64,000 nucleotides of DNA from Neomicrococcus aestuarii. GTDB taxonomy: Bacteria > Actinomycetota > Actinomycetes > Actinomycetales > Micrococcaceae. This document shows, piece after piece, positions 23,867 through 42,267 of this stretch. The stretch's first letter is position 1. Every line of letters starts with the position of its first letter. Where the stretch lies: positions 1,178,001 to 1,242,000 of the forward strand of contig NZ_JACHDR010000001.1 in the NCBI RefSeq assembly GCF_014201135.1, read 5' to 3'. The notes beneath the pieces are model-generated. The model saw nothing but the letters and a program-made list of their open reading frames with translations. It did no database searches and had not been told where the DNA came from. Both the position numbers and the translations under genes were made by a program.

Positions 23867-23942
23867 GCCCCAATAGCTCAGTCGGTAGAGCGTTTCACTC
23901 GTAATGAAAAGGTCGCCAGTTCGATTCTGGCTTGGGGCTCCA
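23867..23942 (+). tRNA. tRNA-Thr (anticodon CGT)
   Basis: Cloverleaf: acceptor GCCCCAA/TTGGGGC, D-arm GCTC/GAGC, anticodon stem TTTCA/TGAAA with loop CTCGTAA (anticodon CGT), T-loop TTCGATT. CCA is encoded in the DNA. Confidence 0.95.
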
Positions 23943-37962: not shown

Positions 37963-38051
37963 GGAGACGTGCCAGAGCGGCCGAATGGACTTCACTGCTA
38001 ATGAAGGGTCCGGGGAAACTTGGACCGGGGGTTCAAATCCCCCCGTCTCCG
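37963..38051 (+). tRNA. tRNA-Ser (anticodon GCT)
   Basis: Acceptor GGAGACG/CGTCTCC, anticodon stem TTCA/TGAA with loop CTGCTAA (anticodon GCT), long variable arm, T-loop TTCAAAT. CCA is not encoded. Confidence 0.95.
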
Positions 38052-38055
38052 CGAA

Positions 38056-38853: not shown

Positions 38854-39267
38854 ATGCTTTATCCAGCTCACCACATTTGCATCGGCATCGACGCTGAGCC
38901 CGCGAAAGTTACCCAGTTCGCGGGCAATCCTGCCAATCTTCCGCAATGGGCGGCGGGGCTTAGCGCCGGCATCCGTCAAGAAGGCGTCAAGTGGATCACG
39001 GATTCGCCCATGGGCGTCGTGGAGGTCCGCTTCACCGGCCCCAAGAAGAACGATGTCCCAGAACACGGCATCCTGGATCACGACGTGATCCTCCCGGACG
39101 GCACCACAGTCCACAATCCCCTGCGCGTTCTGGCAAACGGCACCGGCAGCGAAGTGATTTTCACGCTGCACCGTCTGCCGGGCACCTCGGATGCTGATCT
39201 CGAGCGTGACGCTGACATGGTCCGCGAAGACCTCGCCCGCCTCAAACAGCTACTGGAACAGGGCTAG
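38854..39267 (+). CDS. SRPBCC/polyketide-cyclase-like protein
   Basis: A 137-residue single-domain protein. The start MLYPAHHICIGIDAEPAKVTQFAGNPANLPQWAAGL and the pattern of strands around GVVEVRFTGPKKNDVPEHGILDHDVILPDG fit a START/Bet v1 (SRPBCC) fold. Such proteins bind hydrophobic ligands; none can be named. Its last four bases overlap the 3' end of the convergent ABC transporter gene. Confidence 0.65.
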   Translation: MLYPAHHICIGIDAEPAKVTQFAGNPANLPQWAAGLSAGIRQEGVKWITDSPMGVVEVRFTGPKKNDVPEHGILDHDVILPDGTTVHNPLRVLANGTGSEVIFTLHRLPGTSDADLERDADMVREDLARLKQLLEQG

Positions 39268-40955
39268 ACGGTCACCGCCACCTGAGCCGGAGCGTCCACG
39301 TTCCACGAACGCCACGACTCCAAAACATCCCCAGGCCGCGTACTCGCGAAAATCACCACGCCCGGGTAGTCCCGCAGAATCTCGCGCAACACGTCGCGGC
39401 CAGCTTCAGTCAGGTCCGAGTCGATGTTCTTGAGCAACAGCATGGCCGGGTTGCCGAGGGACGCGCGGGCGACGTGCAGGAGCGCGACTTCGCTGCGATC
39501 CAGCGGCAATCCGCCGCGGCGCAGCTGCGTGTTCTCCCCGTCGGGCAGAGCGCGCACGCGTTCTAAGAGTCCTACGCTTGCGAGCGCCTCGGTGGTGCGC
39601 CGCGCGGACATGTCCGGCCGGCGGTATCGGACGGCGCGGGCGATGGTGCCGCGTTCGAGCGGGACGCCGCTTGCGGCATATCCAGTACGACGACGCCGCT
39701 CCTTTCCGCTGGCACCGTTCAGTTCCTTGCCATCAACAGCGAGCGACCAAACTGGCTGATCGGAACCGCTTAGCTGGGGTGAAAGAGGGGCGGAGAGCGT
39801 GCTGAACAGTTCGTCGATGCGACCCTGCGTGCTGGCGTTGACCAAGATGCGTTCGCCTTCTTCGGCGTAGAGCGGAGGAACTCGGGTTCCCTCCACGCGC
39901 AGTCCACGAATGACCACGCGGCCGCCTTCGGAGTCGTCAACATCCCAGGCTGCGAGGGCCGTGGCCGCCTCAAGATTGTCCAGAAGCTCCACCTTGGGTT
40001 CGGAAGCTTCAGCAAGAACCGGAGCGATCGCCGGGCCGATGATGCGGCGGGCGGCGTTGAAGTTTTGCCGGTATTCCACCACGCGACCGAGCTCGCTCAC
40101 CGGTGCGCTGACGAAGCCCAAGAGCATGAGCGCCGTGGAGATGGTAGCTACGTCGATTGCCCCCGTGGCACCCAAGCCGGCGATGACTGCGGAGCCGAGC
40201 AGCGGCGTCGTCATGGAGAAACCACGCAAAGAACCGGCCACACGCGCCCTATCGATCGCGGCACCCATCACGCGCGCACCGCTACGGTCAAGGTTGCGGA
40301 TTTCGCGGTCCGTGCCGCCAGCGGCGCGAATGCCTTCCGACGCGCGGATGGTGTCGCTAATGCGTGCGGCGAGATTGCCGCGCAGGCGTCGCAACTCGCG
40401 AGCCCGTTCAAGGGCGGGCTTCGCCAAATACGCCAGAATCGCGCACAGGATCAGCATCAACACCAGCACCGTCACACCGAGCGGCCACGAGAGCGCCCAC
40501 AACAACGCTATCGTCGCGAGCACCAGCGGCACCGCGGCGATGAGCGGAACTAAGCCCTGGGACACCCAGTTGCGGATGCTGCTCAGATCGTTGGTGGACC
40601 GCGCAATCGTGATGCCAAGGGACGGAGTGCGTCCTCCACCGAGCGCGGCCCGGAGCAACAGCACACGGATCTCGTGGACGTAGGACTGACCCAAGCGCTC
40701 GGCGAGCACGCGCTCGAGATACTTGGTGATGCCCACGCCCAACACGCTGCCCGCGAGAACCGAAATGAATCCCGCGAGCGCGCCCACGTTGCCCGCCAGC
40801 CGGCCTGAACCGGTGTGCCCGGAGACCAGCTGACCTACCGTGAGCGCCGCGATGATGGCGCACGCAGCACCCGCGAAGGCTACGGCTAGCAGGGCTGCGA
40901 AGGTTCGCCGCCGCTCCCCTGCTAAGAGTCGGGGCAACTGTGGATTTTCACTCAT
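39264..40955 (-). CDS. ABC exporter-like protein with a degenerate ATPase domain
   Basis: A 563-residue fused membrane and nucleotide-binding protein. Hydrophobic segments (about residues 18-42, 52-75, 130-175, 250-290) and the RRLRGNLAARISDTIRASEGIRAAG coupling region fit an ABC type IV exporter half. The ATPase part (about 330-563) lacks its catalytic motifs: the Walker A position reads ERILVNASTQGRIDELF with no GxxGxGKS, the signature reads QLRRGGLPLDRSE, Walker B ends LLLKNID rather than LLDE, and the H-loop reads IFASTRP. The frame is intact with a good GAGGTAGAC before the ATG, so it looks maintained but ATP-dead; it may need a partner subunit. It follows the P-loop gene by ten bases. 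Confidence 0.75.
   Translation of the reverse strand: MSENPQLPRLLAGERRRTFAALLAVAFAGAACAIIAALTVGQLVSGHTGSGRLAGNVGALAGFISVLAGSVLGVGITKYLERVLAERLGQSYVHEIRVLLLRAALGGGRTPSLGITIARSTNDLSSIRNWVSQGLVPLIAAVPLVLATIALLWALSWPLGVTVLVLMLILCAILAYLAKPALERARELRRLRGNLAARISDTIRASEGIRAAGGTDREIRNLDRSGARVMGAAIDRARVAGSLRGFSMTTPLLGSAVIAGLGATGAIDVATISTALMLLGFVSAPVSELGRVVEYRQNFNAARRIIGPAIAPVLAEASEPKVELLDNLEAATALAAWDVDDSEGGRVVIRGLRVEGTRVPPLYAEEGERILVNASTQGRIDELFSTLSAPLSPQLSGSDQPVWSLAVDGKELNGASGKERRRRTGYAASGVPLERGTIARAVRYRRPDMSARRTTEALASVGLLERVRALPDGENTQLRRGGLPLDRSEVALLHVARASLGNPAMLLLKNIDSDLTEAGRDVLREILRDYPGVVIFASTRPGDVLESWRSWNVDAPAQVAVTV
39684..39700 (+). repeat. Copy of the dispersed oligomer AGTACGACGACGCCGCT
   Basis: Same 17-mer as at 25346-25362; here on the coding strand it reads Arg-Arg-Arg-Arg. 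Confidence 0.65.
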
Positions 40956-40965
40956 GTCTACCTCG

Positions 40966-42114
40966 TTAGGCGCGAACCGCGAGATCGTCGATGATGCCCT
41001 GCGCTACTTCTGCGTTGCAGAGGTCGTAGGTGTTGATGAGCTGGACCGGCAGGACGGACTGCGCTTCCGCGCTGGCAAGTGGGGATGCTGTGACGAGACC
41101 GGATACTGCGGCAACGTTGACCTTGGCGCGCTGCAGCACGTCGAGGCCGGCGACAGCTCCGAGCGCATCAGCGGCGGCGAAGATCGTGGCGTCCACGAGC
41201 GAGGCGTAAATGGGATCGGCGAGCAAGCGCGAGGTTTCACCCTGATAGACACCGTCGGCGATTTCAATGACGACGACGTCTGGTGCTGTTCCGTCCACAG
41301 CTGCGGAAAGCTCTTGGATCATGGAGGAGAGAAGTCCGCGGACGGTCTCGTAGTCCAGGAGGAACGTGGTGGGGTACCCGAAGTCGGTGAAGTCAACGAC
41401 GCGGGTGGCGCCGCCGTCGTGGAAGAGGTTTGGGTCATTTCCGGCGCCGGTGCCCGTGGCCTTGCCTGCGGCAACGTTCAAGCCGGCGTTCGTGAGTCCG
41501 TTGACGAGGCAGCCCAGCGTGGTGGACTTGCCGGAGTTCATGGACGTACCGAGGACCGCGATGACGCGAGGGCGGGCGGATCCGACGGCGTTGACTACCG
41601 CAACTGATGGCGCATCCACCGACAACGGTGCGAAGCGGGACAGGTTCACGACGCCCTGTTCGTCCGCCAAAAGACCGATCGGCTCGATGGCGGTGGCAGC
41701 GTCGATGCTCGCGTGCATCTCCTTGACCGCTCCTGCGATGCCGCCGCCGGCGATCAACGAGCAAGGTTCAAGGGATTCAGGCACGTACGCCAAGAACTGG
41801 TCCGGAGCGTAGCGGTTACCGTAGGCCACCATGATTTCCTGGCCGGGGAACAGCAACTGGCGGCGGGACACGGGGCTTTCAAGGCGGGCGTGCTTACCGA
41901 TTTCGGTCACGCGGGCAATGACGACGTCGCCTGCTTGCGGCTTGATGCTGTCACCGGAAAGAAGGTGGTAACCGGTGGCATCTTGGTTGATGCTTTCGGC
42001 CACGAAGCGCGTGGTGTACGCCTTGGGAATGCGAGCCAGACGGGCTGGAGCGATGGGCTCGCGGTATTCACCGTCAAAGGCGTTCGAGCTGAGGTCCATA
42101 AGCGTTGAAGTCAT
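40966..42114 (-). CDS. P-loop NTPase of SIMIBI/DUF1611-like type
   Basis: A 382-residue soluble protein. Start 42114 is chosen because GGGAG lies six bases upstream of that ATG. The N-terminal half has a beta-rich region (AGDVVIARVTEIGKHARLE, FPGQEIMVAYGNRYAPDQFLAY); the C-terminal half has a P-loop LGTSMNSGKSTTLGCL at 188-203, ATGTGAGND, and Asp-rich switch-like segments (VVDFTDFGYPTTFLLD, VVVIEIADGVYQGETSRLL) resembling dethiobiotin-synthetase/DUF1611 enzymes. It lies just upstream of the ATPase-dead ABC exporter on the same strand, so the two probably act together. I do not recognise the family with certainty. Confidence 0.6.
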   Translation of the reverse strand: MTSTLMDLSSNAFDGEYREPIAPARLARIPKAYTTRFVAESINQDATGYHLLSGDSIKPQAGDVVIARVTEIGKHARLESPVSRRQLLFPGQEIMVAYGNRYAPDQFLAYVPESLEPCSLIAGGGIAGAVKEMHASIDAATAIEPIGLLADEQGVVNLSRFAPLSVDAPSVAVVNAVGSARPRVIAVLGTSMNSGKSTTLGCLVNGLTNAGLNVAAGKATGTGAGNDPNLFHDGGATRVVDFTDFGYPTTFLLDYETVRGLLSSMIQELSAAVDGTAPDVVVIEIADGVYQGETSRLLADPIYASLVDATIFAAADALGAVAGLDVLQRAKVNVAAVSGLVTASPLASAEAQSVLPVQLINTYDLCNAEVAQGIIDDLAVRA

Positions 42115-42267
42115 CGTTTCTCCCAAGTGCTTGGCTACCCCTGTTCGGAGCGGCTCTCCTGATGTTTTGCTGACAAATCAACGGTAAAAACCCCAGATGA
42201 GCCGAAGATGAGAGTTTGATGATGCGAAAATGAGAAGACTCGAAAAGCCCCTCAACGTAAGGAAATC

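Follow-up and report, generated by a model that had tools for sequence, protein, structure and literature searches.

What does an ABC exporter do once its ATPase domain has kept its fold and lost its motifs, and what is the part of the P-loop protein encoded directly in front of it? The question is raised by a two-gene unit in a 64,000-nucleotide stretch of Neomicrococcus aestuarii DNA (contig NZ_JACHDR010000001.1, positions 1,178,001 to 1,242,000; the whole of this stretch is called the window), from a source genome of 2.89 Mb in two contigs. An earlier note on this DNA had claimed that the exporter keeps its fused architecture and reading frame and lacks all four ATPase motifs, which open reading frame (ORF), Pfam and alignment analyses confirmed, and that a partner with an intact P-loop (LGTSMNSGKST) is encoded ten bases upstream, which also held, both ORFs lying on the minus strand with a 10-bp spacer between them. 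The exporter ORF encodes 563 amino acids from an ATG start; the P-loop gene also has an ATG start, with an alternative in-frame TTG at 42126. Our analysis confirmed a full-length ABC exporter with a fold-retaining, motif-less ATPase domain under purifying selection, and we tentatively read the unit, with somewhat less than even confidence, as a cargo-making enzyme together with its own exporter, an ABC-derived permease that would not be driven by its own ATPase.

The exporter and its dead ATPase domain

Pfam ABC_membrane (PF00664) matched the window exporter at 59.7 bits (cut-off 28), and ABC_tran gave no Pfam match in it up to E = 1. Alignment with a set that included exporters with intact motifs revealed the loss of all four elements, namely the Walker A, the ABC signature, the Walker B glutamate and the H-loop histidine. 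An ATPase-like fold was nevertheless predicted by the AlphaFold model, which had a predicted local distance difference test (pLDDT) score of 84 overall and mostly above 90 by block from residue 351, and a fold search with the whole model returned the type IV exporters P-gp, TM287/288 and MsbA.

The exporter stretch was compared with that of a sister genome, at 82% protein identity. For the window pair, the ratio of nonsynonymous to synonymous substitution rates (dN/dS) was 0.163 in the ATPase domain, 0.104 in the membrane domain and 0.076 in the P-loop protein. Over eight pairs with degenerate exporters the corresponding ranges were 0.16-0.44, 0.10-0.32 and 0.08-0.22, which settled in the affirmative whether the ATPase part is under constraint, a point for which the earlier note had proposed this very measure. 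The ATPase domain exceeded the membrane domain in seven of the eight, the exception being L028-L057, where the membrane domain was higher; in the intact Henriciella pair the ATPase domain was saturated in this comparison. Among the dead exporters the old ATP loop was found to be drifting, with a mean majority fraction of 0.43, compared with 0.68 both for the signature helix and for the residues that follow the former Q-loop (LERGT..RA.RYR.P), and the intracellular loops of the membrane domain, which would contact the ATPase domain, were the best conserved of the measured stretches (0.69-0.70). Judged from the aligned sequences, conservation inside the dead ATPase domain has shifted away from the ATP loop.

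The two genes travel together. In a scan of one genome per species the exporter adjoined the P-loop gene at 39 of 42 loci, the three misses being L021 and L042, at contig ends, and L060, in which the exporter stands 2.6 kb downstream behind another gene. In the own genome and its relatives, the P-loop gene was present in 17/99 genomes and an exporter orthologue in 9/59 genomes searched (E 1.6e-86 or better, the next best match being 5e-19). All nine exporter-orthologue genomes carry the P-loop gene, and the co-occurrence that the earlier note had staked its case on was thus upheld; G077 has the P-loop gene and no exporter orthologue. A four-base overlap of the two genes is frequent, as in translationally coupled operons. 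Exporter-type P-loop genes (>250 bits) without an adjacent exporter were seen at nine of 78 loci, some of which are repeats of one genome, and these comprise the three misses above, the short locus L113 (its exporter is in L152), an ORF artefact (L161), the broken L063, and L125, L126 and L150.

Intact and dead forms were counted over 57 complete exporters adjoining the P-loop gene (near it in the case of L060), 13 truncated, frameshifted or duplicate rows having been dropped beforehand (L032, L046, L047, L051, L057, L059, L111, L112, L114, L115, L116, L160 and L162). Walker A is lost in 47/57, and by aligned column its lysine is kept in none of the 47. In the actinobacterial clade of the window the loss extends to all 39 members (31 placed by the tree and eight close relatives outside it). 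The other motifs are also gone in the 47, with exceptions that come from an aligned-column recount, the first motif count having used strict patterns: L159 keeps Asp-Glu at Walker B and L156 the Glu at that column, L135 has a signature-like LTAGQ, and Vibrio L054-L056 keep the H-loop histidine. The ten exporters that keep Walker A all lie outside the window's clade. All four motifs are present in seven of them (two Henriciella copies, Sulfitobacter, planctomycete L060, and the actinobacteria L140, L151 and L152); in L141 and L142 Walker A and signature persist, but Gln replaces the Walker B Glu and the H-loop histidine is absent, and L124 keeps Walker A beside a non-standard signature. Outside the 57, the truncated L115 has an intact Walker A, and L046, L057 and the adjacency-missed L161 have none.

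Orthologues with intact motifs had been named in the earlier note as the sign of a sequencing error or of recent decay. The outcome is mixed, in that such proteins do exist, as the ten above; since every one of them belongs to another lineage and none is found among the clade's 39, both causes are excluded. Sequencing error, frameshift and recent decay were likewise ruled out by conservation, open frames and dN/dS.

In a tree of the P-loop proteins, with the arginine-type genes described below as outgroup, the earliest branches adjoin intact exporters, and dead forms occur in actinobacteria, Vibrio and Rhodobacterales. Parsimony on the membrane-domain tree needs three state changes (bootstrap 3-4), of which the starred branches force at least two, in trees with open deep forks and with long branches (L060, L136, L152); the membrane-domain tree was built without L060, and the two trees place different members, L135 or L064, at the base of Rhodobacterales. 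Because regain of a lost ATPase is unlikely, the state changes are taken as separate losses, and we read the ATPase motifs as having been lost separately, more than once.

Neighbouring genes vary among the other lineages and include an alpha/beta hydrolase (alphaproteobacteria), a porin (Henriciella) and PGA_cap (L060); they point to no single cargo. After the Walker A-keeping exporters L140:10642-12146 and L142:3989-5373 come two further proteins, one unassigned and one with an HTTM domain, of which only the smaller was called at L141 (an effect of the ORF caller), and in Paracoccus L061 an HTTM gene lies ~2 kb from the pair on the opposite strand. A peptidase-type ABC gene occurs near the pair in Paracoccus L062, and an M55 D-aminopeptidase gene (L152:7179-8018) lies upstream of the pair on the same strand. 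In Corynebacterium pollutisoli (L044:4737-7029) the P-loop gene is present in two tandem copies ahead of one exporter.

The P-loop partner and its relatives

Named proteins closest to the P-loop protein come mainly from Micrococcaceae (Arthrobacter, Micrococcus, Citricoccus). Its structural model had a pLDDT of 92.9, and among the closest solved folds (VIA-align) were DUF1611 structure 2g0t (Z 16.6; root-mean-square deviation 2.9 over 178 residues), dethiobiotin synthetase (BioD, Z 16) and CTP synthase (Z ~15-16), tied within ~1. The matched chains mostly cover residues 176-382 and none was assigned to the N-terminal half; a search of a viral fold library returned a single match with E < 0.001, to a CTP synthase. 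Structure prediction and fold search thereby supported the SIMIBI-like assignment made earlier, and the modelled protein is of SIMIBI type with a predicted BioD/DUF1611-like fold and an intact P-loop.

With BioD the partner shares the fold of the P-loop domain and the K..TG..D stretch, while its N-terminal half is different. By sequence the best PDB match to BioD had an E of 0.0012 over 51 residues and covers that stretch, no NCBIfam BioD match was obtained up to E = 1, and the relative L062 is annotated as BioD. Lys218 and Asp227 align at what we take to be the active-site lysine and aspartate of dethiobiotin synthetase. These two residues, together with Lys196 of Walker A and Glu284, are invariant in 82/82 homologues from three subfamilies, and D105, Q291, E293 and T294 are specific to the exporter-linked subfamily. 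Membership in DUF1611 was considered and rejected: Pfam DUF1611 scored 18.2 bits on the window protein, below its cut-off of 25, and is weak in 32/35 family members (E up to 0.1, best 3.6e-5), so that the family was kept as a fold relative. DgcN, a DUF1611 protein of a D-glutamate pathway, is said to be an N-acetyltransferase that acylates D-glutamate.

Full-length relatives occur in a quite different setting. A match was found in 72 of 199 planctomycete genomes, and 26 of the ~69 non-exporter-type matches there were given neighbourhoods (L084-L109); an arg gene is adjacent at 25 of these 26 loci, argG in 24 and argH with argC at L101. The arginine-type relatives align with the window family across both domains (hhalign 100%, E 5e-48, 326 columns). 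At L127, L131 and L132 the gene lies among argB, argH, argG, argC, argD and N-acetylornithine carbamoyltransferase genes, and at L130, too, a full-length homologue has arginine genes beside it. NCBIfam cut-offs were exceeded by argB, argH, argG and argC at L127 and by argB and N-acetylornithine carbamoyltransferase at L131; argD was a best match that stayed below its own.

Genomes with and without the arginine-type gene were then compared. The former are 27, the 26 above and G502, in which the second match is arginine-type by score and shares its contig with an ArgB-like match at a distance of 3.3 kb; the latter are 19, made up of 16 of the 20 listed no-match genomes (127 no-match in all) and of G100, G593 and G682, which carry the exporter type only, with G507, G516, G525 and G527 left out. 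ArgJ was found in 0/27 of the former versus 9/19 of the latter (Fisher 8e-5, a value that overstates independence in draft, related genomes), and a GNAT N-acetylglutamate-synthase domain at E < 1e-7 in 0/27 versus 8/19, in a search that small GNAT enzymes unlike the profile could escape. An ArgB-like kinase match is present in all 27, while eight of the 19 show none, perhaps not making arginine via this pathway at all, and nine of the other 11 have ArgJ. Glutamate acylation is the step left unaccounted for where the arginine-type gene occurs, which makes this P-loop gene a good candidate for it and perhaps a planctomycete N-acylglutamate synthase not described before. It seems to stand at the same pathway step as the N-acetylglutamate synthases ArgA, ArgJ, ArgO, S-NAGS, Cg3035, ArgA2 and ArgA3; in the available portions of the two sources, none of these non-homologous enzymes is described as a P-loop protein (PMC3827942, PMC9026213).

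A further distant subfamily adjoins an M20-family gene, a deacylase, at 8/8 loci (L079, L117-L123), with a Pfam check at one, L138; the eight exclude the non-exporter match L078 (by argB and argC), and one query came from L138, which is the same place as L079. Another neighbour of this subfamily, of flavin-reductase type by eye, is shared by L138 and L143. On a Priestia megaterium plasmid a relative (L065:7899-8960) lies in a cluster with PEP-mutase-family, ornithine carbamoyltransferase, two ATP-grasp and M20 peptidase genes, probably for phosphonate biosynthesis. The thread common to these relatives would be the acylation of a glutamate-like amine, with later removal of the acyl group.

Table 1. 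Window coordinates of the exporter, its P-loop partner and their functional or degenerate sites.
Feature	Window position	Strand	Assigned by
P-loop protein (SIMIBI, predicted BioD/DUF1611-like fold), 382 residues; mostly-beta N-terminal part ~residues 1-165, P-loop domain ~residues 180-382	40966..42114	-	
Walker A of P-loop protein, GTSMNSGKST, residues 189-198 (within LGTSMNSGKST); Lys kept in 82/82 homologues	41521..41550	-	
KATGTGAGND of P-loop protein, residues 218-227; Lys218 and Asp227 align with dethiobiotin synthetase K..TG..D	41434..41463	-	
EIADG of P-loop protein, residues 284-288; followed by VYQ.ET with residues specific to the exporter-linked subfamily	41251..41265	-	
ABC-exporter-derived protein, membrane domain fused to motif-less ATPase domain	39264..40955	-	
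Exporter membrane domain, ~residues 10-325; intracellular loops well conserved	39981..40928	-	
Exporter degenerate ATPase domain, ~residues 345-550; fold kept, purifying selection	39306..39923	-	
Exporter Walker A site, ASTQGRID	39813..39836	-	alignment
Exporter ABC signature site, LDRSEV	39486..39503	-	alignment
Exporter Walker B and catalytic Glu site, MLLLKNID	39420..39443	-	alignment
Exporter H-loop site, VIFASTR	39336..39356	-	alignment

In the window itself no arginine enzyme was found among the six scanned neighbour proteins, and the pair does not lie in an arginine operon. A tRNA-Ser(gct) gene is located at 37963-38052, ~1.2 kb past the 3' end of the pair, and three further tRNA genes at 23867, 29630 and 55549.

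Possible roles: enzyme with a permease, motor or scaffold

The window exporter shares its membrane-domain family, its fused architecture and the fold of its ATPase domain with the type IV (CydC/MsbA-like) ABC exporters, and differs from them in lacking Walker A, signature, catalytic Glu and H-loop His and in its constant P-loop neighbour. SbmA has no ATPase domain and is an importer. The SbmA/BacA proteins (SLiPT), as described in the available part of PMC13316013, have an ABC-type membrane domain energised by the proton gradient instead of ATP; the window family, by contrast, consists of exporters that retain a dead ATPase-fold domain, which places them outside the SLiPT group. The earlier note knew of no described system of this form, and in the open-licence literature, partly among best matches only, we too found no description either of a retained, fully dead ATPase family with a P-loop enzyme as neighbour or of a P-loop N-acetylglutamate synthase.

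For the unit as an enzyme with its own permease, the following course of events can be envisaged. The P-loop protein would act as an enzyme that acylates or ligates a glutamate-type amino acid, its P-loop binding a nucleotide or coenzyme A, and its product would be an amino-acid derivative, small and probably anionic. The exporter would carry this product out without use of its own ATP hydrolysis. Synthesis inside the cell would maintain a high internal concentration, and the membrane potential, negative inside, would push anions outwards, such that a gated permease could be enough; the ATPase would therefore be dispensable, which would account for the repeated loss of its motifs from a preserved fold. 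What is left of the domain would serve dimerisation and gating, perhaps in contact with the enzyme.

The main rival holds that the SIMIBI protein is a replacement motor: nucleotide would bring it to dimerise and, once bound to the dead ATPase domains, it would drive or gate the exporter in their stead, much as the earlier note had suggested in proposing that the partner gives nucleotide-dependent control. The SIMIBI fold and the invariant Walker A fit a motor, as do the tight pairing of the two genes and the position of LERGT..RA.RYR.P among the best-conserved segments of a dead domain whose ATP loop is drifting. Full-length homologues, however, appear from their context to serve amino-acid biosynthesis with no exporter adjacent, the partner also adjoins exporters with intact motifs, G077 keeps the P-loop gene with no exporter orthologue, and at L125 and L126 it has no adjacent exporter. 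Because of its exporter-free relatives, its intact-exporter partners and its persistence alone in G077, an enzyme fits better than a motor; the proposal of nucleotide-dependent control is thus weakened, though kept as a possible, if unlikely, explanation. A version in which the SIMIBI protein took over the power stroke of the ABC exporter more than once, binding to the dead ATPase domains and directly coupling its own nucleotide or acyl-transfer reaction to transport of the product that it makes, as synthesis-coupled export, is rather unlikely. Much the same doubt attaches to a scaffold or sensor, a non-transporting exporter that anchors the enzyme to the membrane or regulates it there. A fold conserved without an ATP site would suit it, and two-component genes adjoin the pair in some lineages (a PhoQ-like kinase at L054 and a BaeS-like one at L135, both far under the NCBIfam cut-off), but in most of the pairs compared selection constrains the membrane domain more tightly than the ATPase domain, and this, like the conservation of the intracellular loops, is what is expected of a working transporter.

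It is quite improbable that the protein is the degenerate half of a heterodimer whose intact ABC half is encoded elsewhere. The ATP sites of heterodimers are composite, built from both halves, and those with a degenerate site, such as TM287/288 and TAP, keep one working site. As Walker A and signature are both lost in the window protein, no composite ATP site would be complete, and no second exporter family was found conserved beside the pair. Exporters with one degenerate site are well known, degenerate sites being common in heterodimeric exporters according to the available part of PMC7756269, and loss of motifs in an otherwise conserved exporter is a feature shared with them; the own genome also holds three other, distant exporter matches, of which the two shown lie outside the window. 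A slowly decaying pseudogene or an annotation artefact is very improbable and, as a general account, refuted. Frameshifts or truncations do occur in L032, L046, L047, L051 and L059, and one P-loop gene, from Microvirga, continues into sequence resembling a transposase, but in the degenerate pairs the frames are open with dN/dS well below 1 in 8/8, and the motif loss is common to the whole clade.

The reading of a cargo-making enzyme with its own permease is itself open to several objections. Its cargo, chemistry and energy source are all deduced, and a purely passive permease has no obvious need of a whole ATPase-like domain, which is conserved here. No third gene, a deacylase included, was found conserved with the pair in the window's clade. 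The arginine-type relatives have only ~25% identity to the window family, and the subfamily-specific residues suggest, on the alignment, a substrate or reaction changed with respect to them; hhalign against a DUF1611 profile of only six sequences gave a probability of 0.6% over both domains. The planctomycete loci include one, L085, whose flanks contain no arg gene and whose genome (G504) is without ArgJ too, and borderline GNAT matches were seen in two arginine-type genomes (G685, E 1.7e-5; G661, E 6e-4). The limits stated above for the genome comparison and for the trees apply to it as well.

With intact and dead relatives in one gene family, the exporters would make up a natural gradation that starts with ATP-driven export and ends in a protein devoid of working ATPase motifs, and the family would thus offer a test of what an ATPase domain does beyond burning ATP. 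Its partner opens a family of P-loop enzymes, one branch of which, that of the arginine operons, may represent an N-acylglutamate synthase not yet described.

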